DNA of 29,885 nucleotides from a virus: the IMG/VR virus record IMGVR_UViG_3300009285_000432, positions 1 to 29,885 of that record. The stretch is one strand, 5' to 3'. This document shows positions 1 through 15,376 of this stretch, piece by piece. Within the stretch, counting starts at the first letter, position 1. The number at the start of each line of letters is the position of its first letter. The notes beneath the pieces were generated by a model. It worked only from the letters and a program-made list of their open reading frames with translations, ran no database searches and was not told the DNA's origin. The translations under genes were made by a program, and so were the position numbers.

Positions 1-144
1 TCTGATTCGCCGGGGCCCTCCGCAACACTTGCAGAGCATGCGGGTTCCTCCCTCACGCCCCGGCTCTTACATCAGGACGCTGTTGGTGGCAGCGTGGGGC
101 GGGTTAGCGTGCCCGCCCCGTACCTGAAAAAGGAAAGACAATGA
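1..144 (+). CDS. C-terminal end of an unidentified upstream protein (partial)
   Basis: The reading frame is open from the first base and ends at a TGA that overlaps the next ATG as ATGA, the usual junction in this operon. The visible 47 residues are rich in Ser, Gly, Pro and Ala and end in KKERQ, so they look like a flexible tail. No family can be named. Its position before NinB-like and NinG-like genes suggests an early DNA-metabolism protein. The open frame could be chance, because another frame also stays open almost to base 128. Confidence 0.45.
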   Translation, partial: SDSPGPSATLAEHAGSSLTPRLLHQDAVGGSVGRVSVPAPYLKKERQ

Positions 145-545
145 TCATAGCAAGAGCAACGATAGAAGACGGCGGACTGAGCTTGAAGCACCGCCGGGCG
201 TTTGAGGAGAGGGTACAGAAACTCCCAGACGGTGACTACCGCATGATCCTCGAAGAGGAGAGGGAGTACCGGAGCAATCGGTTGAATCGTTTTTATTGGG
301 GCGTGGTCGTTGAGGGGTTCTGTAGAAAATTCGAGGGACACACGAAGGACGAGATGCACGAAGTCTTGAGGTACAAGTTCAACCGGAGGACGGTCACAGA
401 CCCCGCGACGGGGGAAGTTTTGGAGTTGGGTATGCCGACACATTCGATGCCCCAGGCGGAGTTCCAGATTTATGTTGATGCCTGTCAGAGATACGGAGAC
501 GAACAAGGCGTTGTGTTTGACATGAATTGGGAGGAGGAGGTTTGA
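141..545 (+). CDS. NinB-like recombination-associated protein
   Basis: This 134-residue protein has the pattern of NinB-type and related phage proteins: a basic segment YRSNRLNRFYWG near residues 46-57, followed by a helix with HTKDEMHEVLRYKF and a C-terminal helical part. In lambda, NinB (Orf) binds single-stranded DNA and SSB and helps RecA or Red recombination. SD AAGGAAAG precedes the ATG. The gene is followed directly by a NinG-like gene, the same functional pairing as the lambda nin region, which supports the call. The assignment rests on motif memory and context, so a related phage early family remains possible. Confidence 0.6.
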   Translation: MIIARATIEDGGLSLKHRRAFEERVQKLPDGDYRMILEEEREYRSNRLNRFYWGVVVEGFCRKFEGHTKDEMHEVLRYKFNRRTVTDPATGEVLELGMPTHSMPQAEFQIYVDACQRYGDEQGVVFDMNWEEEV

Positions 546-898
546 CCCGCAAACAGGTAGTCAAGAAGCTGGATGCAGAGTTCTCGAAGTTCATCCGCAA
601 TCGTGACAAGAGGTGCGTGTTGTGTGGAACGACGGAGAATCTACAATGCGGGCATCTCTTGACCCGCGTGGCGTATTCTACGCGTTGGGATGAGGTCAAC
701 TGTCACTGCCAATGCCGCAGTCACAATCTAGAGCACGAATACCGACCCCATGTATTCACGCAGTGGTTTCTGAGGAAGTTCGGTCAGACGCGGTACGACC
801 TGCTGATTTTCAAGCACAACACAACGGCGAAGCTGTCAACAAACGATTTGCTAGCACTCTGGACTCACTACAAACAGAAGAACGGGAGGAAGCCATGA
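542..898 (+). CDS. NinG/Rap-like recombination nuclease
   Basis: I place the start at TTG 542, because GGAGGAGG lies just before it. A longer version from ATG 527 would add four residues that are themselves read from the SD. The 118-residue product has the NinG layout: CVLC (C25, C28), then CGH (C36, H38), a second Cys/His cluster NCHCQCRSHN, and a downstream helix WFLRKFGQTRYDLL. Lambda NinG (Rap) is a structure-specific endonuclease that cuts branched recombination intermediates. The gene overlaps its neighbours on both sides and is probably translated together with the NinB-like gene. Confidence 0.75.
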   Translation: MTRKQVVKKLDAEFSKFIRNRDKRCVLCGTTENLQCGHLLTRVAYSTRWDEVNCHCQCRSHNLEHEYRPHVFTQWFLRKFGQTRYDLLIFKHNTTAKLSTNDLLALWTHYKQKNGRKP

Positions 899-1074
899 AG
901 ATCAAGCTTGTTGTGACAAAGATAGAGCCACACCCGAAGGCGGGGGAGCGCAACTACCAGTCGTATGGGGATGGTGTATTCCCAGACGAAATTGGGACGG
1001 AGATTCTTGTTGTCGAACTCACCGAAGAGGAATACGCGGCAGTCAAGAGGGCCGTGTTGGAGGTGAAGCCATGA
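895..1074 (+). CDS. Small acidic hypothetical protein
   Basis: A 59-residue protein whose ATG overlaps the NinG stop as ATGA, with GGGAGG upstream. A longer frame is open upstream but would run through the NinG gene. It starts MKIKLVVTKIE, has a Gly/Tyr-rich middle and ends with a helix TEEEYAAVKRAVLEV. I recognise no family. The layout of a beta strand, a loop and an amphipathic helix is common in small phage accessory proteins. Confidence 0.7.
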   Translation: MKIKLVVTKIEPHPKAGERNYQSYGDGVFPDEIGTEILVVELTEEEYAAVKRAVLEVKP

Positions 1075-1277
1075 CCTACTCAACCATACCCCTATCCGAC
1101 CCTCGGTGTCTCCGCCTCGGTCGCTACCGTGACCCCGGGGATGTAGACGATACGGACTGCTGTGAATACTGCGGCGAGCCGTTGGATGACTGTCGCATGG
1201 ACACATCTGACGGCCTGGTTTGCGACAACTGCCGGATACGCAAGGCAGACTTCTTCGAGGATGACAATGCTGATTGA
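1071..1277 (+). CDS. Small zinc-ribbon-like protein
   Basis: A 68-residue protein joined by ATGA to the gene before. The centre reads CCEYCGEPLDDCR and then CDNC, giving CxxC pairs spaced like a small zinc ribbon (about residues 28-31 and 50-53). The tail is acidic. It is one of several Cys-rich small proteins in this operon. Such proteins often bind zinc and contact nucleic acid or a host protein, but no specific role can be read here. Confidence 0.7.
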   Translation: MTYSTIPLSDPRCLRLGRYRDPGDVDDTDCCEYCGEPLDDCRMDTSDGLVCDNCRIRKADFFEDDNAD

Positions 1278-1485
1278 CTTCGAGACAACGCTCCGGGTGA
1301 AAGTCAAAGCAGAGGTTGACCCGACATTTCAGACGGCGGACATACTCGAACTGTTGATTGTCGAGTTGACTGACCGTGAGAAGAACACGCTTGAGGGCTT
1401 CGCCTTGCACGAGTACCATGTACAGACGAACCAGGTCACGGACAGAGCCAAGAAATTTAGAGAGAGGATCGACAAGAATGGGTGA
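1267..1485 (+). CDS. Small hypothetical protein
   Basis: A 72-residue protein. I chose ATG 1267 because GAGG sits six bases upstream; ATG 1261 would add two residues. The frame continues further upstream only through the previous gene. The product contains TADILELLIVELTDREKNTL and a basic C-terminal helix ending KKFRERIDKNG. Its internal acidic stretch ELLIVELTDREK resembles the ILVVELTEEEY of the product of 895-1074, so the two may be distant paralogs. Function unknown. Confidence 0.65.
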   Translation: MLIDFETTLRVKVKAEVDPTFQTADILELLIVELTDREKNTLEGFALHEYHVQTNQVTDRAKKFRERIDKNG

Positions 1486-1690
1486 TCGTGTCAGAGGGAT
1501 ACGCTGCCCCGCGTGTGGCATGGAGAAGGTTGAAGAGAAGCGGCTCCATGGTGGTCATTGGTTATGGAATTGCTACAACGGGGAGTGTGACCAGCTCCCC
1601 GAACTCAACGGGCATGATCGGAAGTGGGTCAAGAAAATGTGGCTTGCGATGTGTAAAGACGGGAGGAAGAATGCAGACAAAGCTCTTTGA
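1478..1690 (+). CDS. Small zinc-finger protein
   Basis: A 70-residue protein starting MGDRVRG, with the start placed at ATG 1478 where it overlaps the preceding stop. It has CPACG near residue 10 and a second Cys region WNCYNGECDQL near residue 37, so four Cys could hold one zinc. The rest is basic. The pattern resembles small Zn-ribbon proteins of phage early regions; no named family is certain. Confidence 0.65.
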   Translation: MGDRVRGIRCPACGMEKVEEKRLHGGHWLWNCYNGECDQLPELNGHDRKWVKKMWLAMCKDGRKNADKAL

Positions 1691-1958
1691 CTTCCCGCCT
1701 CACGCTCCGTACCAGTGGAACCGTAGCTCTATCGACGGCGCGAAGAAAGCAAATCAATCGAACGCGGAGAGAATCCTTGCTTTTATCCGTGCCTCAGACG
1801 GAGCCACGCGGCGGGAGATTTCCGAATCCACCGGACTCCCGATCAACATAGTCACAGGTAGAGTCCGTGAGTTGATGGATCGTAAAGATGTGATGGTTGA
1901 CGGTACACGGCTCTCGCCCTACGGGGTGAGGGTGGAAATACTCAAAACAGGAGGATGA
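1671..1958 (+). CDS. Winged-helix DNA-binding protein
   Basis: A 95-residue protein. ATG 1671 follows SD GGGAGG. Residues about 30-80 read as a winged helix: RILAFIRASDGATRREIS, then ESTGLPINIVTGRVRELMDR as the recognition helix, then a beta wing VMVDGTRLSPYG. This is the MarR/GntR-like pattern of N-terminal replication or repressor domains. It is a candidate regulator of early transcription. Its last 13 residues, PYGVRVEILKTGG, are encoded by a repeat that recurs at the end of the next gene. Confidence 0.7.
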   Translation: MQTKLFDFPPHAPYQWNRSSIDGAKKANQSNAERILAFIRASDGATRREISESTGLPINIVTGRVRELMDRKDVMVDGTRLSPYGVRVEILKTGG

Positions 1959-1962
1959 AATG
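1915..1962 (+). repeat. Boundary repeat family 3, copy 1
   Basis: Begins CGCCCTACGGGGTG, continues with GTGGAAATACTCAAAACAGG and ends GAGGATGAAATGG. It encodes the end of the winged-helix protein and supplies the SD and ATG of the gene at 1960. Copies 2 and 3 follow at the next two junctions. Confidence 0.8.
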
Positions 1963-2517
1963 GTAAAGACACCGTTGTTCCCAGTCTATGAATTTCGACC
2001 GTTAGCAGAGATTGCTAGTCGTGGGCTAAAACGGTTTGCTGGCGGGAAATGGATTGACGACGATGGCGAGCACGATCTTGCGTTTATCGGTTTCGTCGGC
2101 GCACCGATGGTATACTATATCACCATACCGTACCAACGGAACATCTTGTGGAAGTTTTGTCACGGCGGCAACTGGGGGGCAGTAGTGGATCAGCATCCTC
2201 GCGGGAATGCGTGGCACTATATGCTCAGGGATGGAGAACGCGAATGGGGAGGGGCGTGGGGTAGGGAAACGCATGAAAACGAGGTAGTTGGGCGAAAAGC
2301 AATGGATGAAACCGCACGGCAATATAGGGGTGCAAATGGTAGTGGTCCCGAGTTCGATTGCAACGATGCCTATATGCGTGACGGTTTGGTGCGGGTGCGT
2401 GAAACGCGAGAGATTGTTACCGTCCCCGATCCGTTTGAGTGTATGTACTGTGGCATTATACACCCGCCCTACGGGGTGCAAGTGGAGGTGCTCAAAACGG
2501 GAGGAGAAATAGCATGA
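1960..2517 (+). CDS. Hypothetical early protein
   Basis: A 185-residue protein with a good SD (GGAGG) from boundary repeat copy 1. It is rich in Trp, Tyr and Gly (GGNWGAVV, WGGAWGRE) and carries CMYCG near residue 162, a single CxxC. I recognise no family. The C-terminal PYGVQVEVLKTGG matches the end of the preceding, unrelated winged-helix protein, which fits a shared DNA element at the gene end better than common ancestry of the proteins. Confidence 0.7.
   Translation: MVKTPLFPVYEFRPLAEIASRGLKRFAGGKWIDDDGEHDLAFIGFVGAPMVYYITIPYQRNILWKFCHGGNWGAVVDQHPRGNAWHYMLRDGEREWGGAWGRETHENEVVGRKAMDETARQYRGANGSGPEFDCNDAYMRDGLVRVRETREIVTVPDPFECMYCGIIHPPYGVQVEVLKTGGEIA
2465..2516 (+). repeat. Boundary repeat family 3, copy 2
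   Basis: Begins CGCCCTACGGGGTG identically to copy 1, then GTGGAGGTGCTCAAAACGGG and AGGAGAAATAGCATG. It ends one gene and provides SD and start for 2514-2729. Confidence 0.8.
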
Positions 2518-2729
2518 CACTCAAAATCATATGCTGCAAGTGTGGCGAGGAATTTGATGTTGCAGACATCCGCGTACCGGATCGCTTTGATGCTCCGATA
2601 GTTGTCCGCGTCTATCCATGTGAAAGATGCGCGGGACATAAGTGTGCCTGCGGAGAGACGTTCGATTCGAGTCTATCACAGTGTAACGAAACAAAGATGT
2701 GTGAGTCCTGTTTGGACTCGGTTCAATAA
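2514..2729 (+). CDS. Small double zinc-ribbon protein
   Basis: A 71-residue protein; the start at 2514 is set by SD GGGAGGAG in boundary repeat copy 2. It has several Cys pairs: CCKCG near residue 7, CERC near residue 37, CACG, and CESC near the end, enough for two zinc sites. It overlaps the previous stop. It resembles rubredoxin-like or Zn-ribbon microproteins; role unknown. Confidence 0.7.
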   Translation: MTLKIICCKCGEEFDVADIRVPDRFDAPIVVRVYPCERCAGHKCACGETFDSSLSQCNETKMCESCLDSVQ

Positions 2730-2730
2730 A

Positions 2731-2780
2731 CCCCGTAGAGGTGGGGGGGGGAAATACTCAAAAAGTGGAGGTGTGCCATG
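2731..2780 (+). repeat. Boundary repeat family 3, copy 3 (diverged)
   Basis: CCCCGTAGAGGTGGGGGGGG followed by GAAATACTCAAAAAGTGGAG and GTGTGCCATG. The middle GGAAATACTCAAAA matches copy 1. Unlike copies 1 and 2 it lies outside coding sequence, between the stop at 2729 and the start at 2778, and keeps the SD. Confidence 0.65.
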
Positions 2781-3002
2781 AAGCTCGGATGCTGTTACAT
2801 GTATCCCACTATGTTGCTGTGTGCTAACGCGGCGGATTTTGAAATCCACGAAAATACGCGAGCCGACCCGGATAATTATACCTATACTTGTGGCGAGCAT
2901 CTGGCGCAGATGTTGGGGACAACTGAAGGTTTCCCGCCCTGTAATTCCTGGACGGTTGAAGAGCTGGGCGAGGAGGTGAAGCAGAATTGGCAAGGCAAGT
3001 GA
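2778..3002 (+). CDS. Small Cys-containing hypothetical protein
   Basis: A 74-residue protein with SD GTGGAGG. It begins MKLGCCYMYPTMLLC and has further Cys at TCGEH and PPCN. Its cysteines are not in a clear zinc-ribbon order. The C-terminal helix VEELGEEVKQNW is acidic. No family recognised. Its stop overlaps the next GTG start. Confidence 0.6.
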   Translation: MKLGCCYMYPTMLLCANAADFEIHENTRADPDNYTYTCGEHLAQMLGTTEGFPPCNSWTVEELGEEVKQNWQGK

Positions 3003-3127
3003 AGAAGCCCAAACCCTGCTTACACCTTGACCGTAAGCTGGTCGGTTACACATCAGAAGGTCGCAGGCCGATATGGCACTGCGAAAAATGCGGTAAGGTG
3101 TTCACGGACAAACAAGAGGAGAAGTGA
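2999..3127 (+). CDS. 42-residue zinc-finger microprotein
   Basis: A short GTG-started frame overlapping the preceding stop as GTGA and ending two bases before the next ATG. The product has KPCLHL near the start and HCEKCGKVF near residue 27, giving a C-x-H plus C-x2-C zinc-finger pattern. The coding signal rests on the overlap, the zinc pattern and the fact that it fills an otherwise empty gap. The SD is weak, so translation may depend on coupling. Confidence 0.6.
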   Translation: MKKPKPCLHLDRKLVGYTSEGRRPIWHCEKCGKVFTDKQEEK

Positions 3128-3128
3128 C

Positions 3129-3404
3129 ATGAAAGCATTGATGCTGTTGCTGTTGCTCGCCGTACCATTGTACGGTGATGTGAACAAAGAGGCGCAGAAA
3201 TTCACGCTCACGGTGACGATCACGTACAACGCCGTGACGCTTGAAGAGGCGACGAAGATCGAGGCCCAGGTCAGGCGGAACCATGTGGACGCTTGCAAGG
3301 TGATTCTGGACGTGATCCGAGCTGAGGCCGTAGGAACGGGTGCGAGGTTGATATTGGACAGCGTCTCTATCTGTCCCCATCCCTTCAACCTGCTCGTCCG
3401 TTAG
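3129..3404 (+). CDS. Small secreted protein with signal peptide
   Basis: A 91-residue protein with SD GAGGAG upstream. The N-terminus MKALMLLLLLAVPLYGD is a clear Sec signal peptide with likely cleavage near residue 16. The mature part is about 75 residues with a beta strand FTLTVTITYNAV, a helix and two Cys. Early secreted phage proteins can act in superinfection exclusion or on the cell envelope; that is inference. It is the last gene before the promoter region at 3405-3607. Confidence 0.65.
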   Translation: MKALMLLLLLAVPLYGDVNKEAQKFTLTVTITYNAVTLEEATKIEAQVRRNHVDACKVILDVIRAEAVGTGARLILDSVSICPHPFNLLVR

Positions 3405-3426
3405 TTGCCGGATCGGAAAAAATAAC

Positions 3427-3456
3427 TTGACAAGTGTATCCCTTTTTTCGTATATT
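3427..3456 (+). promoter_or_regulatory. Strong sigma70-like promoter
   Basis: TTGACA at 3427-3432 and TATATT at 3451-3456 with an 18-bp T-rich spacer. It also fits a Bacteroidota-type pattern, TTG-N21-TATATTTC. The expected start of transcription is near 3463, one base before the long hairpin at 3464. It would drive the leader ORF and HNH gene. Confidence 0.75.
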
Positions 3457-3463
3457 TCTTGCA

Positions 3464-3546
3464 CTACGCGAAACCAATAGGAGACGGTATGACACATACA
3501 ACGCTTTATTCGGGTGCTCTGTCTGGGCCGTCTCCTATTCGCGTAG
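3464..3546 (+). promoter_or_regulatory. Transcript-start hairpin over the leader ribosome-binding site
   Basis: The 5' arm (3464-3487) and 3' arm (3528-3546) pair over 19 bp: CTACGCGA plus ATAGGAGACGG against CCGTCTCCTATTCGCGTAG, with a 5-nt bulge (AACCA) in the 5' arm. The SD AGGAGA lies inside the 5' arm, the ATG at 3489 is in the 40-nt loop, and the 3' arm is inside the leader ORF. The fold should block ribosome entry or stabilise the RNA 5' end. Confidence 0.75.
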
Positions 3547-3611
3547 GGCTGGTTCATTCCGGGCACGAGCATCCGGATAAGGCGTTTCTGTTTCCGGGGA
3601 GAATTCAATGA
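3489..3611 (+). CDS. Leader ORF (40 residues) before HNH gene
   Basis: ATG at 3489 follows AGGAGAC, and the TGA at 3609-3611 overlaps the HNH start codon as ATGA. The product begins MTHTTLYSGALSG and has no known domain; it includes HSGHEH, which could bind metal. The gene sits within and just after the promoter hairpin, so it may act mainly as a leader whose translation opens the hairpin and couples to the HNH gene. The peptide itself may or may not be functional. Confidence 0.55.
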   Translation: MTHTTLYSGALSGPSPIRVGLVHSGHEHPDKAFLFPGRIQ

Positions 3612-4120
3612 ACTATTCCGAATATCTCCAGACTCCGACATGGAAGGACTTGCGGCAGAAAGCAATCGCAAGAGCCGGGTCACGCTGTCAGCTTTGCAAC
3701 TCGCCGAAGAAACTTGAAGTACACCACAGATGCTATCCTAACGAGTTAGGCGCAGAAGAACTCCTCGATCTCACCGTGCTGTGCAAATCATGCCATTTTG
3801 TTGTGACTACCGTCATCCAGGGCAAGGGTGTTCCGTCAAAGCACAAGGCAAAGATTCACCGATTGCCGCAGCAGGCAACGTCTGCGCCCGTTAACAAGTC
3901 ACGCAATTGGACGGCGAAGGATCGGGAGTTGAAGTATCAACGGTGTATGCGAAACGTGCGCCAGTTCGAGAAAGCGGTAGAGAGAGCAATACGAGAAGGA
4001 AAGACGGGGGACTATCACCGAAGATTAGTGAAGCGTTGGAAGAAGAGAGCACTACAATATGAGGACCCGGCATGGATGACCACTAGACCAACGGCAGAGG
4101 AGATGCCTAAGGTCGGGTAG
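3608..4120 (+). CDS. HNH endonuclease
   Basis: A 170-residue protein with a textbook HNH domain: YLQTPTWKDLRQKAIAR, then C27 and C30, the catalytic H39-H40 in LEVHH, and C59-x2-C62-H63. The second half is basic (NWTAKDRELKYQRC, KRWKKRAL) and probably holds DNA. HNH proteins of this type are either free-standing homing nucleases or phage DNA-processing nucleases. This copy is far from the terminase genes, so a packaging role is less likely. Its promoter and hairpin leader suggest separate regulation from the upstream operon. Confidence 0.85.
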   Translation: MNYSEYLQTPTWKDLRQKAIARAGSRCQLCNSPKKLEVHHRCYPNELGAEELLDLTVLCKSCHFVVTTVIQGKGVPSKHKAKIHRLPQQATSAPVNKSRNWTAKDRELKYQRCMRNVRQFEKAVERAIREGKTGDYHRRLVKRWKKRALQYEDPAWMTTRPTAEEMPKVG

Positions 4121-4147
4121 AGCTCCCATCAATGGGGTAACGACGTA

Positions 4148-4210
4148 ATGCGTCCAAACTTCGGAGAGACACCGTTGGTTCGAGCAAAGCATTTGTTGCA
4201 CGTTGTATGA
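4148..4210 (+). CDS. Possible 20-residue microprotein
   Basis: A short frame starting MRPNFGETPL and ending in ATGA with the next tiny ORF. The SD (GGGGTA) is poor. Only the overlap chain supports it. Confidence 0.2.
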   Translation: MRPNFGETPLVRAKHLLHVV

Positions 4211-4311
4211 GTAAACGGAACATGACCATCCCGCCGGCAGTTCAAACGGGGGTAGGGGGGCGAGCTTCGCAAAAAACGCTCGCTCGGTATTGCGCATACA
4301 AAGATACATGA
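4207..4311 (+). CDS. Possible 34-residue microprotein
   Basis: A frame starting MSKRNMTIPP, rich in basic and small residues, joined by ATGA overlaps on both sides. It has no SD of its own and would need coupled translation. Confidence 0.22.
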   Translation: MSKRNMTIPPAVQTGVGGRASQKTLARYCAYKDT

Positions 4312-4406
4312 AAGACGAAAAGCAACTGAGTTCATTAAGGGACGGTGTGACTCTTCGCTACTGCGGGGAGATAAAGGCGTACTATGAGAAAGGGAAGAGG
4401 TCGGAC

Positions 4407-4607
4407 ATGGGGAAAAGACGGATACCGCATGTTTGCCCAGTGTGCAACGGTCATGGGACAGTCTCAAAGCCGGATTATATTGCTGGCGATCAAATGATGT
4501 GGACGGGTTCAAGCGTAGCATTATACGAGTGCCGAGCTTGTCGCGGATCGGGAATTGTATGGGACGGCGAGGTTACATCACCCATGAAAACGAAGGAGGA
4601 ACTATGA
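4407..4607 (+). CDS. DnaJ-type zinc-finger-like small protein
   Basis: I use ATG 4407 because GGAAGAGG precedes it by six bases. A longer start at 4308 would add 33 residues. The 66-residue product has CPVCNGHGTV and CRACRGSGIVW, two CxxCxGxG motifs like those of the DnaJ central zinc finger, which here would form one zinc site. In DnaJ these repeats bind substrate; small phage proteins with the same motif are common and of unknown role. Ends with ATGA into the next gene. Confidence 0.65.
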   Translation: MGKRRIPHVCPVCNGHGTVSKPDYIAGDQMMWTGSSVALYECRACRGSGIVWDGEVTSPMKTKEEL

Positions 4608-5158
4608 AACTGCGTCGGATAGTGATTGAGGGCGAGAACGTTGCGCAGTATTGGCCCGCTGGCATTTCTGATGGGTTGATCATCCCGTGTTTTGGTTGCG
4701 GGAAAACCGTTGACTTCGATTTTGTGGTAACAGACGATACTTGGAAGTCTGTCGTGCCACGCGAATACCGGACAGCAGCTCTATGCCTGCGTTGTTTTGA
4801 TGAGATGGCAACACACAAAGGCATTGAGTGGGTGAAATATGTTGTTTCGGTGCAGTACACGGGCGAGAACAAGACGCTGTATCTTGTGCCCGACAAAATC
4901 ATTCGATACCAATACGATGGAGATCGTATGGCCGTGCAAGAACGAGACAATGAAACAAGAGCGGTGCCCCACGCAGAGCTTGTCAAGCAGGCCGTGGAAC
5001 AGTACAACAACTTGGCTCGCGACGCTAATCATTTCAACTCCGTGATTCTCGAAGCCCTGGAGTTCTACCGCAAATGGGGAGATTCACCGTGGAAGGAATA
5101 TCTATCCTATCAAGAAATGCGGCGTAGGTCGATGGAGAAGGAATCCAAAGATGGGTAA
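4604..5158 (+). CDS. Hypothetical protein with one CxxC pair set
   Basis: A 184-residue protein with SD AAGGAGGA. The N-terminal third has CFGCG near residue 29 and CLRC near residue 64, consistent with a zinc ribbon formed by two CxxC pairs. The rest is mixed alpha and beta with a helical end (EYLSYQEMRRRSMEKE). No family recognised. It follows another Cys-rich gene and precedes one, suggesting a cluster of related small zinc proteins. Confidence 0.7.
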   Translation: MKLRRIVIEGENVAQYWPAGISDGLIIPCFGCGKTVDFDFVVTDDTWKSVVPREYRTAALCLRCFDEMATHKGIEWVKYVVSVQYTGENKTLYLVPDKIIRYQYDGDRMAVQERDNETRAVPHAELVKQAVEQYNNLARDANHFNSVILEALEFYRKWGDSPWKEYLSYQEMRRRSMEKESKDG

Positions 5159-5378
5159 ATGGAAATCCGTCCAGCCGGGGGAGAAGATGTTCTGGAACTG
5201 CAATCATCCTATCAGGTTGGTGTGTTGCGATTGTGGCCTTGTTCACATATTCAAGATCGCTAAAGGCATGAGGCGCGGTTTCATCCTCGTCCAGGCGTGG
5301 CGGGACAACAGAGCAACGGCAGCTCGCCGTCGGCATAGGTCGAAAAGATTCAGGCGTGCGATAACAGAGGAACCGTGA
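5151..5378 (+). CDS. Small zinc-ribbon and Arg-rich protein
   Basis: A 75-residue protein overlapping the previous gene by eight bases. It has WNCNHP and CCDCGLVH near residues 16-30, typical of a zinc ribbon, and a strongly basic C-terminal half with RRRHRSKRFRR, fitting nucleic-acid binding. It ends one base before the next ATG. Role unknown. Confidence 0.7.
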   Translation: MGKWKSVQPGEKMFWNCNHPIRLVCCDCGLVHIFKIAKGMRRGFILVQAWRDNRATAARRRHRSKRFRRAITEEP

Positions 5379-5379
5379 A

Positions 5380-5742
5380 ATGCCAAGAGCAAGAATAGCG
5401 CACTACGAAATGTGCAAGGTGTTCAAGAGTTTGTACGAGGAGAAGTTCAGCGGGTTCTACTGCATCACTCCGGTGGATGCGAAAGTAGCGCATGAGTTCT
5501 GGGTCTTGAATGGTGAGCTTGCAGAGGAGCAGATGAGACCCCACGCGATGAACTACTTTGCCGATGAGTTCGAGGGATGGAGCGAGCGTCGGTGGCCTGC
5601 CTGGCTATTCTTCAAGCACTTCAATTCGTTCGCTCCGAGGATTGAGAAGCCGACGGTGAAGGTTGGTCAGCATACACATGAGTTGGTGATCCACTGCACC
5701 CGTTGCAACCGTAACCACAGAGCGAATGAGGATTGTGAATGA
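5380..5742 (+). CDS. Hypothetical early phage protein with CCHC-like tail
   Basis: A 120-residue protein with a weak SD. The body is rich in aromatic residues (YCITPVDAKVAHEFW; WPAWLFFKHFNSFAP) and is predicted helical; the last motif resembles ends of phage replication or helicase-loader domains, but I cannot name the family. The C-terminus CTRCNRNHRANEDCE reads as C-x2-C-x3-H-x5-C and is encoded by boundary cassette A. It recurs on the next two, unrelated proteins. Confidence 0.7.
   Translation: MPRARIAHYEMCKVFKSLYEEKFSGFYCITPVDAKVAHEFWVLNGELAEEQMRPHAMNYFADEFEGWSERRWPAWLFFKHFNSFAPRIEKPTVKVGQHTHELVIHCTRCNRNHRANEDCE
5685..5742 (+). repeat. Boundary cassette family 1, copy A
   Basis: Contains GGTGATCCAC, TGCACCCGTTGCAACCGTAA and CCACAGAGCGAATGAGGATT, ending TGTGAATGA. 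It encodes the end of 5380-5742 and supplies SD GAGG and the ATG of the methyltransferase at 5739. Confidence 0.85.
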
Positions 5743-6722
5743 TCTTGCATGGTGACGCATTAATGATGCTCAAAACTCTACCCGATGAATCGGTGCAGTG
5801 TTGTGTGACCAGCCCGCCGTACTGGGGACTACGGGATTACGGCGTTCCAGGTCAGCTCGGCCTGGAGAAAACGCCGGAGGAGTACGTTGCCAAGTTGGTA
5901 GATGTCTTTCGTGAAGTCCGGCGCGTCCTGCGGAGTGACGGAGTGTTGTGGCTGAATTTGGGGGATAGCTACGCCACAGACTTGAAGGGTGGCCCGAAAT
6001 CGAAACCCGGCGATAAGTCATATACAAACAAAGGGACGCTCGGCATTGATCCCATTAAACAACAGCATGGACTGAAACCCAAAGACCTTGTTGGTATCCC
6101 GTGGCGTGTTGCTTTCGCCCTTCAAGCAGACGGATGGTGGCTCCGTCAGGACATCATTTGGGCGAAGCCGAACCCGATGCCGGAGTCAGTCACCGATCGT
6201 TGCACAAAGAGCCATGAGTACATATTCCTGCTGAGTAAGAGTGCGCGGTATTACTACGACGCGAAAGCGGTGCAGGAAGAAGCGCAAACACCGTTTTCAA
6301 GTGGCGGGCTATCTCGGGGCGAGAGAAGCGAAGACACACACATGATAAGTGGTGAGAACCACAGTGGTCCAGGTTTCGTGACGGGCACACATCGGAACCG
6401 CAGAAGCGTGTGGCATCTATCAACCAAGCCTTTCTCCGGCGCACACTTCGCAACCTTCCCGCCCGAGATTCCAGAAATATGTATCAAGGCAGGAAGCAAA
6501 GAAGGCGATACGATCCTTGATCCCTTCGCCGGAAGCGGTACAACACTGGAAGTGGCTGAGAGATTGGGCCGGAAGTCAATCGGTATCGAACTCAACGAGA
6601 AGGACATCAGGAAATTCATAGAGCCGCGCCTTGCGAACATTGATCCATTGTTCAAGCAAGAACCCGGCTGCACCCGTTGCAACAGAAACCACAGAGCAGA
6701 CGGAGATTGTGAAACATCTTGA
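5739..6722 (+). CDS. Beta-class DNA methyltransferase (N4-cytosine or N6-adenine)
   Basis: A 327-residue enzyme that transfers a methyl group from S-adenosylmethionine to an exocyclic amine of DNA. The catalytic motif TSPPYWGLRDYG is at residues 24-35, and the SAM-binding motif DPFAGSGTT at 261-269, so the order is that of class beta. SPPY favours N4-cytosine but does not exclude N6-adenine. The target recognition region lies between the two. No cognate restriction gene is beside it, so it is probably an orphan enzyme that protects phage DNA or changes regulation. The last residues CTRCNRNHRADGDCETS are the boundary-cassette tail. Confidence 0.92.
   Translation: MILHGDALMMLKTLPDESVQCCVTSPPYWGLRDYGVPGQLGLEKTPEEYVAKLVDVFREVRRVLRSDGVLWLNLGDSYATDLKGGPKSKPGDKSYTNKGTLGIDPIKQQHGLKPKDLVGIPWRVAFALQADGWWLRQDIIWAKPNPMPESVTDRCTKSHEYIFLLSKSARYYYDAKAVQEEAQTPFSSGGLSRGERSEDTHMISGENHSGPGFVTGTHRNRRSVWHLSTKPFSGAHFATFPPEIPEICIKAGSKEGDTILDPFAGSGTTLEVAERLGRKSIGIELNEKDIRKFIEPRLANIDPLFKQEPGCTRCNRNHRADGDCETS
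6669..6713 (+). repeat. Boundary cassette family 1, copy B
   Basis: TGCACCCGTTGCAACAGAAA then CCACAGAGCAGACGGAGATT and GTGAA. It encodes the methyltransferase tail and provides SD CGGAGA plus the GTG start at 6709. A 30-nt core is identical to copy C. Confidence 0.9.
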
Positions 6723-7716
6723 TCTTTTTTCCGGTATCGGTGGTTTTGCGCTTGCATCCTCTTGGGTGTGGGGTGATGAATATGAGAACGTAGGACACTC
6801 GGAGGTTGAGCCGTATGCCTGCAAAGTCTACCACAGGCACTTTCCAGAATCGGAGTGCTTAGGTGACATCACGAAAATCAAGTGGACGGAAGGACAAGCC
6901 GACCTTATCACGGGAGGATTCCCCTGCCAGCCACATTCAGTCGCGGGGAAAAGGAAGGCGTCGGCAGACAGCCGGGATCTTTGGGGTGAATGTGCGAGAG
7001 CCGTTCGCATGGTACGACCCCGATACGCCGTATTTGAGAACGTCCCAGGGCTCCTTGTTTCAGAGGGAGGGCGATTCTTCAACCGAGTTTTGCATGACCT
7101 GGCCGAGATCGGGTATGATGCGGAGTGGTATACTGTCGGGGCTTGGCAGGTTGGTGCTAGCCACAAAAGGGACCGCATCTGGATTGTGGCCTACTCCCGT
7201 AGCGAACGACGACAACAAATCCGTCGAAGCGCATCTGGCGATGAAGGCGCGGATGAAAGGTGGACCACGACACACAATCACATCGCTACAGGTTGCGGCA
7301 AAGCAATTCGCCACCCCCCAATCGCGGGACTTCCGGACTGGTCAGGCGGAGAGATGGGACAACCCTGGCCGGTCACGGAATTTGAACGACCAGATGGCAA
7401 AGAAGGTGGCGATGTTCAGAACCCCGACCGTAGCGGAAGCAAAGAATCAGGAGTGCAGCAATCAGGTGTATCTGCAAAACCAGGTGGGAGCAAACAAGGG
7501 CAACGGGAAATTGAGCGTGTCTTTTGTCGAATGGCTAATGGGCTATCCTCTCCGATGGTCGGCACCCTTCCAGTTATCAATCGTGTGGACCGACTTAAAG
7601 GACTCGGAAACGCAATCGTCCCCCAAGTAACATACGTGATTCTTGATGCAATCCGAAGGGCAGACACCATGACCCCTTGCAACAGAAACCACAGAGCAGA
7701 CGGAGACTGTGAATGA
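6709..7716 (+). CDS. dcm: C5-cytosine DNA methyltransferase
   Basis: A 335-residue enzyme that methylates carbon 5 of cytosine in DNA. The start is GTG 6709, seven bases after CGGAGA, so the protein begins at MKHLDLFSGIGGF, which is motif I. Motif IV GGFPCQPHS gives the catalytic Cys 73, motif VI FENVPG includes E110, motif VIII is ASHKRDRIWIV, and motif X LKGLGNAIVPQ is near the C-terminus. The variable region (about residues 160-300) should recognise the target. A 255-codon frame is embedded in the +2 phase. The C-terminus carries the cassette tail PCNRNHRADGDCE. Confidence 0.93.
   Translation: MKHLDLFSGIGGFALASSWVWGDEYENVGHSEVEPYACKVYHRHFPESECLGDITKIKWTEGQADLITGGFPCQPHSVAGKRKASADSRDLWGECARAVRMVRPRYAVFENVPGLLVSEGGRFFNRVLHDLAEIGYDAEWYTVGAWQVGASHKRDRIWIVAYSRSERRQQIRRSASGDEGADERWTTTHNHIATGCGKAIRHPPIAGLPDWSGGEMGQPWPVTEFERPDGKEGGDVQNPDRSGSKESGVQQSGVSAKPGGSKQGQREIERVFCRMANGLSSPMVGTLPVINRVDRLKGLGNAIVPQVTYVILDAIRRADTMTPCNRNHRADGDCE
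6863..7630 (+). CDS. Candidate overlapping gene inside the C5-methyltransferase (WPTP/VEWLMG-type protein)
   Basis: A 255-codon frame lies wholly inside the methyltransferase gene in another phase. It starts at GTG 6863 with GGAG nearby. Its product contains a chain of motifs that I recall from phage and mobile-element proteins often found beside C5-methyltransferases: FAWYDPDTPYLRTSQGSLF, then WPRSGMMRSG, GLWPTPVAND, ATPQSRDF, FRTPTVAEA and FVEWLMGYPLRWS. These repeated (W)PTP...D units and the final WLMG motif do not look like a chance shadow. The methyltransferase frame is intact too, so this would be true dual coding. The first 40 residues look less convincing, and the family memory needs a database check. 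Confidence 0.45.
   Translation: MTSRKSSGRKDKPTLSREDSPASHIQSRGKGRRRQTAGIFGVNVREPFAWYDPDTPYLRTSQGSLFQREGDSSTEFCMTWPRSGMMRSGILSGLGRLVLATKGTASGLWPTPVANDDNKSVEAHLAMKARMKGGPRHTITSLQVAAKQFATPQSRDFRTGQAERWDNPGRSRNLNDQMAKKVAMFRTPTVAEAKNQECSNQVYLQNQVGANKGNGKLSVSFVEWLMGYPLRWSAPFQLSIVWTDLKDSETQSSPK
7673..7716 (+). repeat. Boundary cassette family 1, copy C
   Basis: CCCCTTGCAACAGAAACC followed by ACAGAGCAGACGGAGACTGT and GAATGA. It encodes the C5-methyltransferase tail and supplies SD and ATG for 7713. Confidence 0.9.
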
Positions 7717-8240
7717 CGGAGGTTGAAGTACAAAATCTGGTTTGGCGGGAGTACGCAACGAGCAGCAACCTCGTTGTCATTCCATGCTCCAACGTCCTTG
7801 GGTGGGAGGCGGATATGTTGGTCGTAACGCGGGCACTCTTGGCGCATGAGTTTGAAATCAAATTGACGCGGGCGGATTTCCGGGCGGACATGGGCAAAGA
7901 GAAGTGGGCGCATTTTCAGGCGTTCCGGGCAGGAAGCATGGTGTTGCAGGTGGACCGATATGGGTTTAGTGCGCGCGTGCTTCGTCCAGCGAACTATTTT
8001 TGGTATGTCTGCCCGCCGGACCTCTTGGTGACTGCCGATGTGCCGACCTTTGCTGGTTTGGCCTATGCGACAAGAGACGGATTGCGGACGATGAAAAAGC
8101 CGGAGCGATTACACAGGGAGAAGCTGTCACAATCTCAGGTGATGCAAATTACCCGTGCTATGAGTTTTCGGTACTGGCAAAGGCGTAACCGCAGAGCGGA
8201 CGGAGATTGTCACACACAAACAACAGGAGACACACAATGA
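7713..8240 (+). CDS. PD-(D/E)XK nuclease-like protein
   Basis: A 175-residue protein starting at ATG 7713 with SD CGGAGA from cassette C. WEADMLVVTRALLAHEFEIK places D34 and the pair E-x-K 13 to 16 residues later, the spacing of the PD-(D/E)XK nuclease core. The middle VCPPDLLV and LAYATRDGLRTMKKPERLHR look like the later strands and helix of such folds. The partner may be DNA damage, packaging or host DNA; nothing here decides. Its C-terminus NRRADGDC is a degenerate form of the cassette tail. Confidence 0.6.
   Translation: MTEVEVQNLVWREYATSSNLVVIPCSNVLGWEADMLVVTRALLAHEFEIKLTRADFRADMGKEKWAHFQAFRAGSMVLQVDRYGFSARVLRPANYFWYVCPPDLLVTADVPTFAGLAYATRDGLRTMKKPERLHREKLSQSQVMQITRAMSFRYWQRRNRRADGDCHTQTTGDTQ
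8183..8210 (+). repeat. Boundary cassette family 1, copy D (degenerate)
   Basis: CGTAACCGCAGAGCGGACGG then AGATTGT. It lies inside the end of the nuclease-like gene, but the next start is 27 bases later and uses its own SD (CAGGAGA). Confidence 0.75.
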
Positions 8241-8503
8241 TACAACTCGGATCGTATGTGCGCGATAAAATCACGGGGATAGAGGGCTATGTAATGGGCA
8301 GGACCGAATACCTCACTGGGTGCGCCCACGCAGGCATTCAGCGACCCGGTCTGTCGAAGGACGGCAAGACGTTTGAGTGGGAGTGGGTGGATGAAACCCG
8401 AGTGGATCTCGTCAAGGGCAAGAAGCCGGTGCGGTTGAATGTTCAGGCTCAACAACGATCTGATCGAGCGGGTGGACCAGCACCTAACGCGCCGCAACTG
8501 TAA
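8237..8503 (+). CDS. Small KOW/SH3-like phage protein
   Basis: An 88-residue protein joined by ATGA to the previous gene, with SD AGGAGA. The pattern GSYVRDKITGIEGYVMGRTEYL is a small beta-barrel (KOW or SH3-like) entry, followed by GCAHAGIQRPGL and an acidic EWEWVDET. Similar small proteins of about this length are common in phage early regions and are annotated as hypothetical; they may bind nucleic acid. The C-terminal 25 residues are low-complexity. Confidence 0.7.
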   Translation: MIQLGSYVRDKITGIEGYVMGRTEYLTGCAHAGIQRPGLSKDGKTFEWEWVDETRVDLVKGKKPVRLNVQAQQRSDRAGGPAPNAPQL

Positions 8504-8516
8504 CGGGCTCAGTCTG

Positions 8517-8552
8517 CCACAGAGCAGACCAACAATGCGGGGAGGTGAGATG
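8517..8552 (+). repeat. Boundary cassette family 2, copy G (hybrid)
   Basis: Begins CCACAGAGCAGACC like family 1, then AACAATGCGGGGAGGTGAGATG like family 2. It holds SD GGAGGTGAG and ATG 8550; a second ATG at 8535 is in frame 15 bases earlier. Confidence 0.8.
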
Positions 8553-8774
8553 AGATTCTGGCGTTGGAGCAAAGAATACCATGAGATGAAGCGCAAAGCA
8601 TTCTGGCGTTCTGAGGAATTGCTTGCACAGAATACCGGATATTCTCTTGCACTAATGTTTGGGGCGAAAGACGAAGGAAATTGCAGGTTCATGGTGTCGT
8701 GGACAGCCCGAAACGCCAAAAGGATGGAGCGAGTCTCACAAGGGAAGAAGCCGTTTGGGATCGGCAAGAAGTGA
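8550..8774 (+). CDS. Small basic hypothetical protein
   Basis: A 74-residue protein with SD GGAGGTGAG. It starts MRFWRWSKEYHEMKRKAFWR and ends KKPFGIGKK, so both ends are basic and rich in Trp and Phe. The middle is mildly hydrophobic (GYSLALMFGAK). No family recognised. An in-frame ATG at 8535 would add MRGGE. Confidence 0.6.
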   Translation: MRFWRWSKEYHEMKRKAFWRSEELLAQNTGYSLALMFGAKDEGNCRFMVSWTARNAKRMERVSQGKKPFGIGKK

Positions 8775-8786
8775 GGTGTGGCTGCC

Positions 8787-8820
8787 TGCAACCGTAACTA
8801 CAGAGATGAACGGAAAGATT
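8787..8820 (+). repeat. Boundary cassette family 1, copy E (degenerate, intergenic)
   Basis: TGCAACCGTAACTACAGAGA followed by TGAACGGAAAGATT. It lies between genes and no longer holds a usable start; the gene at 8842 uses GGAGGT further on. Confidence 0.65.
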
Positions 8821-8841
8821 GGCGAAAAACGGAGGTACACA

Positions 8842-9132
8842 ATGAAGGATAAGCAAGCGTTTGGGATTAACGAGCGCGGATTCACGTTCAAAGCGTGGTA
8901 CTGCACAGACAATGATGGAGACGCGATCATTGAGGTTTGGTGCAATGAGATACTCGTTCGAGAGTTCCTGTATCCAGCGTACAAAATCTGGAATATCGCT
9001 GCACACGTTTCTGACATCATTGATGGAGAATTGTCAAAGACAGATACCGAACGTGGCTATCGAATCGCTGGAGACATGATGCTTGTTGGAGGATGCGTTA
9101 TGCCACGACCAATTCCTGGGGAGAACCGATGA
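8842..9132 (+). CDS. Hypothetical protein
   Basis: A 96-residue acidic protein with SD CGGAGG seven bases before ATG 8842. A longer start at 8806 lacks a good SD. The sequence alternates short strands (FTFKAWYCTDNDGDAIIEVW) with a helix (YKIWNIAAHVSDIIDGEL). No family recognised. Its stop overlaps a 15-residue ORF that looks like gene debris. Confidence 0.65.
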   Translation: MKDKQAFGINERGFTFKAWYCTDNDGDAIIEVWCNEILVREFLYPAYKIWNIAAHVSDIIDGELSKTDTERGYRIAGDMMLVGGCVMPRPIPGENR

Positions 9133-9176
9133 ACAGAAAGAGGGATGAACTGAAGAGTGGTTCTAACAATGACTGA
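9129..9176 (+). pseudogene. Fifteen-codon fragment with a copied RDELK segment
   Basis: ATG 9129 overlaps the preceding stop, but the frame ends after 15 codons. The 17-nt segment AGAGGGATGAACTGAAG at 9139-9155 occurs again at 9431-9447 inside the next gene, where it encodes part of the coiled coil. The fragment plus cassette F looks like debris of a duplicated or deleted gene. Confidence 0.4.
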
Positions 9177-9180
9177 ATGC

Positions 9181-9240
9181 TGGTGATCCACAGTGTACCC
9201 GCTCGAACCGTAACCACAGAGCAGACGGAGATTACAAATG
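9181..9240 (+). repeat. Boundary cassette family 1, copy F
   Basis: TGGTGATCCACAGTGTACCC, then AACCGTAACCACAGAGCAGA and CGGAGATTACAAATG. It keeps the full length of copy A, including GGTGATCCAC, but the peptide frame is broken. It retains SD and an ATG at 9238 in frame with the next gene. Confidence 0.85.
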
Positions 9241-9270
9241 AGCAGACCAACAATGCGGGGAGAAGCCATG
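9241..9270 (+). repeat. Boundary cassette family 2, copy H
   Basis: AGCAGACCAACAATGCGGGG then AGAAGCCATG. It follows cassette F in tandem, so the gene after it has three in-frame ATGs (9238, 9253, 9268). Confidence 0.85.
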
Positions 9271-9615
9271 AGTGAGATGCTGGATATAGAGGAATTGCGA
9301 AATAACCCGACACGATTACTGGGGATTGTTTCGCAGTTGTCGTTTGATGCAAAGTTTGAACGTAGTCTCCGAGCCAGCGCCGAAGGAGAAGTCAACCGTC
9401 TCGCCACCGAGAACGCCTCCCTTACCCGCGAGAGGGATGAACTGAAGCACAAAACGAGGACACCCGATAGGGTCGAGAATTTCGTAAACTCATTCACCTC
9501 AGTTGATGCCGAGGGTTATCAGTATATGACGCGAGACGACTATCGGCGGTTTCTGTCCGCAATTCACGAAGAACAAGACTTGTTTTCTGACCAACAATGC
9601 GAGGAGGTGAGATGA
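9268..9615 (+). CDS. Coiled-coil hypothetical protein
   Basis: A 115-residue protein from ATG 9268 (MSEMLDIEEL), downstream of GGGGAG. ATG 9238, with its own SD from cassette F, would add ten residues, and both starts could be used. Residues about 35-65 form a coiled coil (EGEVNRLATENASLTRERDE). The C-terminal part YMTRDDYRRFLSAIHEEQDL is helical, and the end DQQCEEVR comes from cassette I. Function unknown; its start MSEM matches the gene at 10237. Confidence 0.7.
   Translation: MSEMLDIEELRNNPTRLLGIVSQLSFDAKFERSLRASAEGEVNRLATENASLTRERDELKHKTRTPDRVENFVNSFTSVDAEGYQYMTRDDYRRFLSAIHEEQDLFSDQQCEEVR
9589..9614 (+). repeat. Boundary cassette family 2, copy I
   Basis: GACCAACAATGCGAGGAGGT then GAGATG. 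Encodes DQQCEEVR-stop and starts the gene at 9612. Confidence 0.85.
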
Positions 9616-9869
9616 AAAAATTTGAAATGAGGTTCGGGGCGTTTGTGCCAACCCTCGCTGCCCAGATTGAACAGCAGGGGTTCAAACTCAGACGGATCGA
9701 TGTGGCTCACCACCAACGCGATGTCGATGCAGTTACGCGGCTTGCCGTTCGTGGCATCTTGTCCGAGGCAGAATCTCGAAGGGCGCGACAACGCCTGGTG
9801 AATCGGATAGCGAAAACCGTTAAGCCGTTGAACCACAAACCAGATCAACAATGCGAGGAGATGAGATGA
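9612..9869 (+). CDS. Small basic hypothetical protein
   Basis: An 85-residue protein with SD GAGGAGG and ATGA overlap. It begins MKKFEMRFGAFVPTLAAQI and contains many Arg and Gln in predicted helices (HHQRDVDAVTRLAVRGIL; EAESRRARQRLVNRIAKTV). No family recognised. The C-terminus DQQCEEMR is encoded by cassette J. Confidence 0.65.
   Translation: MKKFEMRFGAFVPTLAAQIEQQGFKLRRIDVAHHQRDVDAVTRLAVRGILSEAESRRARQRLVNRIAKTVKPLNHKPDQQCEEMR
9843..9868 (+). repeat. Boundary cassette family 2, copy J
   Basis: GATCAACAATGCGAGGAGAT then GAGATG. Ends the previous gene and starts the one at 9866. Confidence 0.85.
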
Positions 9870-10240
9870 ATGACGAACGTCCCAGAATTGTCTGTTTATG
9901 TGGGTCGACTCGATTCTATGAGACGTGGCAGCGAGTGAATTACGAGGAAACGTGCGCCGGGAGGATCGTCTTGGCGGTTGGCTTTTATCCTCATTCGCAG
10001 AATCAGGCTCATGGAGAGACAGTAGGCACGGATCCGGCCCTAAAGATTCGGCTTGACGAATTGCACAAGCGCAAGATCGACCTTGCGGACGAAGTGCTTG
10101 TGTTGAACGTTGGCGGGTATGTAGGCGACAGTACGAAATCCGAAATACGCTACGCCATTGAGTACGGTAAACCAGTCCGCTGGCTCGAACCCGATAAGGC
10201 GTGGAGCCCTACCGACCAACAATGCGAGGAGAAGCCATGA
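9866..10240 (+). CDS. Nucleoside 2-deoxyribosyltransferase-like protein
   Basis: A 124-residue Rossmann-like protein of the nucleoside deoxyribosyltransferase superfamily. The start VCLCGSTRFYETW (residues 9-21) is the typical first strand and loop, and KRKIDLADEVLVLNVGGYVG with DSTKSEIRYA and GKPVRWLE matches the second half, where the aspartates and the final Glu act on the N-glycosidic bond in known enzymes. Members cleave or exchange bases of nucleosides or nucleotides. In a phage with three DNA methyltransferases it could clean up or rework nucleotide pools; that is inference. The end DQQCEEKP is from cassette K. Confidence 0.75.
   Translation: MNDERPRIVCLCGSTRFYETWQRVNYEETCAGRIVLAVGFYPHSQNQAHGETVGTDPALKIRLDELHKRKIDLADEVLVLNVGGYVGDSTKSEIRYAIEYGKPVRWLEPDKAWSPTDQQCEEKP
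10214..10239 (+). repeat. Boundary cassette family 2, copy K
   Basis: GACCAACAATGCGAGGAGAA then GCCATG. Same start context as copy H (AGAAGCCATGAGTGAGATGC). Confidence 0.85.
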
Positions 10241-10731
10241 GTGAGATGCCGGAGAGTGTGAGTCGCAGCGAGGCAGCTGGCAGGCAGATTCAAGATTCCG
10301 TGAGGGCGATCAACTACGGGACACCAGTGCCGCTTGACCTCGACGGTGTCGTGGAAAAGCTACTCTTCTATTTCACGATACTCTACACAGGGCCTTCATG
10401 GGGCGGCGACACCCGGACATCGGAGGGGTGGCACCAGAAGAAGGAGGCGCTTCGCTTGATGTTCCGGTCTCGCCTGGCCCCAACCTTTGAAGCTCACGAA
10501 GCGATCAGGGTCGCCGAGGTTGAATCCCTCACCGCCGAGTGTGATGCTTTGCAGAGGGAGTTGGGAAAGATGAGGGCGGCAAATGTCGTGTACCGAGGGA
10601 GGGGCGATACCCGAGAGATAGATGAACCGAGAGAGGAAATCGAACGCCTGAACAAGACCGTCGAAGCCCTCACGAACGACAACGCCAGACTTCTGCTCCA
10701 GATCAATCAGATGGGGGAGGCGAGGAGGTGA
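10237..10731 (+). CDS. Hypothetical protein with C-terminal coiled coil
   Basis: A 164-residue protein starting MSEMPESVSRSEAAG with SD GAGGAGAAG. The middle has a possible hydrophobic helix (VVEKLLFYFTILYTG) and a Trp-rich loop. Residues about 95-160 form a long coiled coil (VESLTAECDALQREL; EEIERLNKTVEALTNDN). The overall plan, coiled coil plus cassette start, matches the gene at 9268. Function unknown. Confidence 0.65.
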   Translation: MSEMPESVSRSEAAGRQIQDSVRAINYGTPVPLDLDGVVEKLLFYFTILYTGPSWGGDTRTSEGWHQKKEALRLMFRSRLAPTFEAHEAIRVAEVESLTAECDALQRELGKMRAANVVYRGRGDTREIDEPREEIERLNKTVEALTNDNARLLLQINQMGEARR

Positions 10732-10814
10732 CGATCTATTACGCCTTCAACGCCCTTCTCGTTCTCGCTGCCGGTGCGGCTCTTTGGTACACTCTCTCAG
10801 AGAGGCGCAAATGA
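10728..10814 (+). CDS. 28-residue single-TM microprotein
   Basis: A GTG-started frame with SD GGGGGAGG, overlapping the previous stop (GTGA) and the next start (ATGA). The product is one hydrophobic segment, YYAFNALLVLAAGAALWYTL, followed by SERRK, so a membrane helix with a positive C-terminus, probably cytoplasmic. It is placed just before the glycan module. It might be a small holin-like or regulatory peptide, but nothing proves a role. Confidence 0.6.
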   Translation: MTIYYAFNALLVLAAGAALWYTLSERRK

Positions 10815-11500
10815 GAGTCTGCGTAGTTGCTCCGATGCTTAACGAAATCCGATTCGTTCGGGCGTGGTGCCAGAACGTCAAAAGATACGCGGACGATGTT
10901 GTGGTGATAGATACCGGCTCAACGGACGGGACCGTTGCTGTTTTGATGGAAGAGGGCATACAGGTCAAGAAGGTACTTGTGTTTTCTCCCTATGTCTGGC
11001 CGGAGGCAGCGATTAGGAATACTTTTGATCTCTACACGGACTGTGAGTGGATAGTCTACCAGGACGCAGACGAGCTTGTGGGGGATGAGTTTGTAAATGA
11101 TTTGAAGCGGCTACGGGAAACGCGACTACCCTTTGTGAGGTTCCCACAGCTACCGTTTTGGGGTGGACCCGATAGACTCAGGGCGAGGACTCTGAGGACT
11201 TTTGACGATTGGCGACATTGGTATCCCAATAATACGAAGGTCAAGATGTATCGCCGGGGAGTCTGTTCCTGGGCTGGGGGGCATGAATCAAGCGGGTGCA
11301 ACCCATATCTCAGATACCGTAAACTTGGAAAGTGGTCGCAGAGGATTTGCTATTACTCGCAGGCTCCGCTTTACCATTACCACTATGCTTTCCCGATGAA
11401 GCCGGGGGATCTCCGAAGAGGGGATACCGAAGCCGTGACTAAGCCATTCACGGGGACGCACCCGAAAGAGGCATACATGATCGAAGGGCTGTTCAAATGA
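10811..11500 (+). CDS. GT2-family glycosyltransferase
   Basis: A 229-residue inverting GT-A glycosyltransferase. The N-terminus MRVCVVAPMLNEIRFV and VVVIDTGSTDGT match the GT2 nucleotide-sugar fold, and QDADE (D85, D87) is the metal-binding DxD-type motif. The C-terminal half has PNNTKVKMYRRG and many His and Tyr, as in WaaE/KdtX-like enzymes that add a sugar to the LPS core. It overlaps its neighbours by four bases, so it is translated with the rest of the glycan module. Confidence 0.85.
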   Translation: MRVCVVAPMLNEIRFVRAWCQNVKRYADDVVVIDTGSTDGTVAVLMEEGIQVKKVLVFSPYVWPEAAIRNTFDLYTDCEWIVYQDADELVGDEFVNDLKRLRETRLPFVRFPQLPFWGGPDRLRARTLRTFDDWRHWYPNNTKVKMYRRGVCSWAGGHESSGCNPYLRYRKLGKWSQRICYYSQAPLYHYHYAFPMKPGDLRRGDTEAVTKPFTGTHPKEAYMIEGLFK

Positions 11501-14839: not shown

Positions 14840-15063
14840 ACGCTGAACTGAAGCCCTGGGTGAAGTACCTAAAGGACACGGCACCGGAGATGTTCAAGGA
14901 ATGCGTTGATAGCCTGGAGGCAACGCGGCAAAGCAAAGACCTCGAGGCCAAATTGCTTAGGGAGAAAATCATTGATCTAAAATTGGAGTTGCGGGAGCTG
15001 TGGGAGTTCTTCGATGCGCTGAGCGGGTTAATTGAGCGATCTACCGAGAGGAGAGAGAAATGA
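14836..15063 (+). CDS. Small coiled-coil protein
   Basis: A 75-residue protein with SD GGAAGGTG. It is almost entirely helical, with a heptad-like middle (SLEATRQSKDLEAKLLREKI) and a charged end ERSTERREK. No family recognised. It links the glycan module to the last early zinc protein. Confidence 0.65.
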   Translation: MNAELKPWVKYLKDTAPEMFKECVDSLEATRQSKDLEAKLLREKIIDLKLELRELWEFFDALSGLIERSTERREK

Positions 15064-15318: not shown

Positions 15319-15376
15319 ATGGGGTTGGTGACGTAGGCCAACGTTACCCGGTTGACATAGGCAATTGGATTCACTC

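Follow-up and report, generated by a model that had tools for sequence, protein, structure and literature searches.

The window analysed here is the entire linear virus record IMGVR_UViG_3300009285_000432 of IMG/VR (29,885 bp), a fragment of a tailed phage whose genes, many of them small, lie nearly all on the + strand. Besides the large terminase subunit (TerL) and the major capsid protein, three DNA methyltransferases are encoded. The closest TerL relatives are 47-56% identical and spread across short contigs, and the bacterial-genome matches of the virus comprise Bacteroidetes and Deltaproteobacteria MAGs, among others. Phages need to keep their own DNA-cutting enzymes in check. At the locus described here, a promoter-proximal leader that contains a short open reading frame (ORF) runs directly into the gene of an HNH endonuclease (Table 1).

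Table 1. Features of the leader and the HNH gene, with two structural genes of the window for reference; SD, Shine-Dalgarno sequence; S1 to S3, predicted stems.
Feature	Position	Strand	Basis or remark
Sigma-70-type promoter, TTGACA-18-TATATT	3427-3456	+	Consensus scan; TTGACA 3427-3432, spacer 18 nt, TATATT 3451-3456
Predicted transcription start (A)	3463	+	7 nt past the -10 element; read from the sequence
S1, arm A	3464-3487	+	Holds the leader SD; 5-nt bulge 3472-3476
Leader SD, AGGAGA	3479-3484	+	Sequence
Leader ORF, 40 codons (MTHTTLYSGALSGPSPIRVGLVHSGHEHPDKAFLFPGRIQ)	3489-3611	+	
S2, arm B	3500-3526	+	Within the S1 loop
S1, arm A'	3528-3546	+	
S2, arm B'	3559-3586	+	One bulged base, 3566; downstream of S1
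Imperfect U-rich stretch, UCUGUUUCC	3587-3595	+	3' of S2; partner of 3480-3486 in the fold predicted with S2
S3, small hairpin over the HNH SD	3598-3629	+	Stem 3598-3606/3620-3629
HNH endonuclease gene, 170 aa	3608-4120	+	HNH families, alignment
Terminase large subunit	17123-18403		
Major capsid protein	20640		

Promoter, leader ORF and HNH gene

The promoter upstream of the leader agrees with the consensus at 11 of 12 positions; among the five sites that a consensus promoter scan gave for positions 1-15000 it ranks first. Since promoter-like sites total fewer than the 9.5 that shuffles give on average, what matters is the quality of this one alone. Its core CCCTTTTTTCGTATATT is repeated with two mismatches at 15302-15318, in an intergenic region (3 matches compared to 0.37 expected), which supports the view that the site represents a real promoter type of the phage. 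From the position of the -10 element we infer the transcription start; an earlier note on this DNA had placed a promoter here and the start one base ahead of S1, and its coordinates are correct.

The leader ORF shows good SD spacing and its frame stays open for 40 codons up to the HNH gene, where, as the earlier note had described, its TGA overlaps the ATG at 3608 in the form ATGA. In codon statistics the frame ranks first of six, but the signal is too weak to decide: only 7% of genuine gene segments fall below its score, and 4% of off-frame segments rise above it. The leader peptide belongs to no family and has no homologue in the protein searches, which gave only matches with E = 9. The HNH gene carries its own SD, GGGGAG, and may thus be translated independently; judged from the arrangement of the two frames, translational coupling of leader and HNH gene is plausible.

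The HNH protein matches PF01844 with an E value of 5.6e-4, just below the curated cut-off, and also matches the PHROG HNH families. Aligned with relatives from phages and plasmids, it keeps the zinc Cys pairs and the His-His motif, with the similarity (28-49% identity) mostly limited to the first 60-100 residues. Since the gene does not adjoin the terminase gene, a role in homing or DNA processing appears more likely than one in packaging. An RNA-guided HNH nuclease of the HEARO/IscB-like type was dropped as a candidate, because the protein has 170 aa, the HNH domain is its sole match and Rfam gave no match. On the 3' side of the gene, between 4121 and 4406, about 170-290 nt hold no clear gene and a GGCGAGC...GCTCGC repeat is present near 4260; this stretch is possibly the boundary of an HNH cassette (3405-4120).

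Two interleaved stems and their predicted folding

The earlier note had reported a 19-bp stem in the leader, with the SD in the stem and the ATG in the loop, and both statements are borne out. S1 is composed of 8 bp (3464-3471/3539-3546) and 11 bp (3477-3487/3528-3538), all of them Watson-Crick pairs, to either side of the bulge, and has a duplex energy of -29.7 kcal/mol. The leader SD lies within arm A, and the leader ATG (3489-3491) within the 40-nt loop. A second stem, S2, is absent from the earlier note although it is the stronger of the two: it comprises 27 bp with five G-U pairs, no mismatch and one bulged base, and its duplex energy amounts to -45.0 kcal/mol. No other stem of the window equals its ungapped 20-bp portion. 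For neither S1 nor S2 was the duplex energy reached in any of 5000 dinucleotide shuffles.

The two stems are interleaved without common bases, the four arms following each other in the order A-12-B-1-A'-12-B' (gaps in nt). When this geometry was slid along the window, the top score among about 9900 + strand positions was obtained at 3463. Such an order corresponds to a pseudoknot or a two-state arrangement, in which the stems probably compete. The leader region is moreover the most stable 130-nt segment of the + strand for its GC content (z -5.0), compared to about -3.1 for the - strand, and this better folding of the + strand fits selection on the RNA. The presence of G-U pairs in S2 together with the lack of A-C mismatches likewise argues for selection on the + strand RNA, five pairs being few. 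A second folded segment, the next most stable of the + strand in the window (z -4.3), is found at 14191-14390 within a coding region.

To follow the order of folding, growing transcripts were folded in an equilibrium, pseudoknot-free model, which also underlies the fold energies given below. Hereby, only weak structures are predicted up to about 3532, S1 appears at about 3538-3580, and from 3586 on the S2 fold prevails; the minimum-energy fold of the full-length leader contains S2 without S1. For positions 3463-3660 the fold with S1 forced has -68.6 kcal/mol compared to -77.8 kcal/mol for the free fold and is thus, in the absence of a pseudoknot, worse by 9.2 kcal/mol. S1 may hence be only transient, since it is gone from the predicted S2 end state. 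As S1 and S2 share no bases, a partial pseudoknot of the two is possible; a complete one is unlikely, since arm B' would then be wrapped around the loop segment for roughly two and a half turns.

Both SD sequences are largely occluded in these predictions. For the leader SD the free fold of 3463-3660 gives a mean unpaired probability of 0.17, which drops to 0.00 once S1 is forced; in the S2 fold this SD is mostly paired with 3589-3595 instead of the S1 arm. For the HNH SD the corresponding values are 0.21 and 0.01. In a local test covering -60 to +60 the HNH SD region gives 0.01; this is the joint minimum over 37 starts of the window, whose median is 0.43. Such a predicted occlusion is what a coupled gene would need. 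S3, the hairpin that covers the HNH SD, does not exceed its shuffles in stability (z -0.45), and the occlusion therefore counts as support and not as proof.

Proposed control of the HNH gene and alternative readings

Taken from this anatomy, our preferred reading is that the folded leader acts through its ORF to hold back the HNH gene, with S1 forming first and S2 acting as its competitor or pseudoknot partner; we regard the chances of this reading as evenly balanced. The position of the promoter, which places the RNA start at the foot of S1, counts in its favour. Transcripts from the 3427 promoter would then open with a structured control leader of ~125 nt for the nuclease gene. Arm A, bearing the SD of the leader ORF, would emerge first, and A' would follow about 45-65 nt later, whereupon S1 would close over the SD, so that the leader would be translated only by ribosomes that start within the short interval before closure. 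With the HNH SD base-paired, the nuclease would be made mainly when a ribosome finishing the leader at ATGA opens the region. S2 would subsequently replace S1, or kiss it as a partial pseudoknot, to yield a slow second state. Kinetics, coupling and a benefit to the phage are what we infer here: nuclease synthesis would be low, delayed or conditional. The earlier note had proposed SD hiding combined with coupling. All the anatomy it named is present and this remains the most economical reading, but S2 had gone unseen, and the full leader is predicted to end in a fold other than S1. Control by temperature or by a ligand, which it had also named, finds no support here.

A more far-reaching proposal, which we put forward tentatively and hold to be rather unlikely, is that S1 and S2 (19 and 27 bp), both long and interleaved with gaps of 12, 1 and 12 nt, constitute an unusual two-state RNA that nearly fills 123 nt while also coding for a peptide, and that this kinetic or pseudoknot switch ties the synthesis of a phage nuclease to a race of ribosomes at the 5' end. 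To our knowledge, no two-state switch of such size has been described among phage or plasmid leaders. If the leader works as proposed, it would be a compact example of a peptide-coding stretch, about 120 nt long, that doubles as a two-state RNA and in which the sequence of transcription of the parts decides on nuclease synthesis.

The main rival to control by SD hiding takes S1 and S2 as elements of RNA processing or stability. S2, with 27 bp long enough for RNase III, would be a substrate of this enzyme, and S1, which begins at +2 of the predicted transcript, would guard the 5' end against 5'-end-dependent decay, so that cleavage and not SD hiding would set the nuclease output. RNase III sites in phage leaders and mRNA-stabilising 5' stems are established, and the stems found here are long and near perfect. 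Such a role, however, leaves the placement of SD and ATG in S1 and its loop unexplained, as well as the interleaving, and we consider it unlikely. S2 and the following UUUCUGUUU could alternatively form a weak terminator within the leader, with S1 as early antiterminator and the ribosomes on the leader ORF deciding between the two. S2 is indeed very stable and followed by 6-7 U in 9 nt, and S1 forms ahead of the synthesis of B'. The run of U is, however, broken, and part of it is base-paired in the predicted fold. A terminator scan gave no site in the leader, but S2 is outside its reach because it accepts loops of up to 8 nt only. Altogether, attenuation appears improbable.

The strong, + strand-biased fold, along with the weak codon signal of the leader ORF and the lack of a protein relative, would also be expected of an independent structured or trans-acting non-coding RNA whose overlap with the 40-codon ORF is incidental. 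We think this quite improbable: good SD spacing, 40 open codons and the ATGA junction are hard to combine by chance, no terminator frees such an RNA and Rfam holds no match. Least probable is a function at the DNA level, with the inverted repeats serving as protein-binding or cruciform sites (operator, recombination, replication) and RNA folding as a side effect. The perfect Watson-Crick repeat of S1 would be as good in DNA, but the five G-U pairs of S2 without an A-C mismatch favour RNA, the arms are far apart, the S1 bulge is one-sided and folding is better for the + strand than for its complement.

Relatives and comparison with known systems

A homologous leader was found neither by protein search nor by DNA pattern or covariance model, which we count against the control-leader reading. 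As a single query against viral_contigs and genome_contigs the HNH protein found no relative; the HNH alignment was too diverse for use as a query. The pattern GGAGACGG-N-ATG...CCGTCTCC gave four matches in viral_contigs, all in unrelated sequence that contains the inner repeat alone by chance, and single-sequence covariance models of S1 and S2 retrieved only the window itself from 33 sources (359 kb, TerL relatives included). The TerL relatives have the late module in common, and an HNH gene of this kind was not found in those fragments; a search with the protein encoded at 7713-8237 likewise yielded no relative. Rfam at the gathering score (riboswitch, thermometer, leader, ribozyme) gave no match in the window, and a permissive search gave only sub-threshold eukaryotic families. 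Among five other, distant HNH genes, three have no hairpin ahead of them. In Circinus the hairpin (z -3.4) resembles a terminator belonging to the gene upstream. One is clear: in the Rhodobacteraceae phage LS06-2018-MD05 a long hairpin (1387-1447, z -2.0) lies inside an ORF of 34 codons overlapping the start of the HNH gene; the hairpin does not cover the RBS and is an architectural parallel only, no homologue of the S1/S2 leader.

Control by leader peptide and pseudoknot is known from plasmid rep genes (repY/repZ of ColIb-P9 and IncB; tap/repA of R1), in which short pseudoknots and a countertranscript RNA regulate a replication gene. The present leader resembles repY/repZ in its structure, in the short ORF overlapping the gene (3489-3611 versus 3608, ATGA) and in the pairing of a loop with a downstream segment, here B in the S1 loop with B', which ends 21 nt before the HNH ATG. 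In contrast to the short pseudoknots of the plasmids this second pairing has 27 bp, the consensus scan shows no - strand promoter-like site near 3427-3700 for a countertranscript, and the downstream gene encodes an HNH endonuclease instead of a replication initiator.

Among phages, RNA structures that hide the RBS are established for the homing endonucleases I-TevI, I-TevII, I-TevIII, segB and Aeh1 mobE (PMC2988022). The I-TevI structure arises solely on the long transcripts of the early and middle classes, the late-promoter RNA lacking enough sequence (PMC2988022). Here as in the T-even phages, a stem covers an SD near the promoter of a phage nuclease gene and nuclease synthesis is expected to be held down. 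Whereas the T-even hairpins hide the SD of the endonuclease itself, S1 hides that of the leader ORF, with the HNH SD lying under the weak S3. The only strong promoter-like site is located upstream of the whole arm, none being placed to yield a transcript class that lacks the 5' arm, and the present leader has a second, interleaved stem. The T-even genes encode mobile homing endonucleases; the protein described here has an HNH domain, and no close relative was found that could offer an empty site for comparison. For seg43(25) of Aeromonas phage 25, a very stable hairpin is described just upstream of an endonuclease RBS that it does not hide (PMC2988022). S2 would sit in a like manner, as a stable stem upstream of the endonuclease RBS that does not itself hide it; seg43(25) has a single hairpin, and no leader ORF is mentioned in its description (PMC2988022).

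The mRNAs of the type I toxins timP and tisB are controlled by pseudoknots, with co-transcriptional folding that masks the SD, followed in timP by a slow structural switch (PMC11295053). Masking of the SD during transcription and a slow second state are likewise what we propose for the present leader; no antitoxin RNA was found here, and the gene encodes a 170-aa nuclease rather than a small membrane toxin. By analogy, the leader would thus work like the RBS-hiding hairpins of phages and like leader-peptide/pseudoknot control, as a member of neither. If true, it would add a case of the pseudoknot type to the RBS-hiding controls of the T-even endonucleases.

Two further observations concern other parts of the window. 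At 15289-15412 a second promoter core (TATATT 15313-15318) is followed about 70 nt on by a clear intrinsic terminator (GCCCGTCCCTCGAGGGGAGACGGGC, then TTTTTCG), delimiting a small-RNA candidate about 85 nt in length (fold z -2.25) upstream of a ParB/methyltransferase gene. Pairing of this RNA with the leader was rejected as too weak: the 8-mer GGAGACGG occurs five times compared to 1.7 expected, and 4 of 100 shuffles reach five. Finally, the small genes at 8550, 9612 and 9866 carry the near-identical upstream sequence CAACAATGCG(G/A)GGAG(G/A)TGAG ahead of their ATG, which suggests that they are duplicates.
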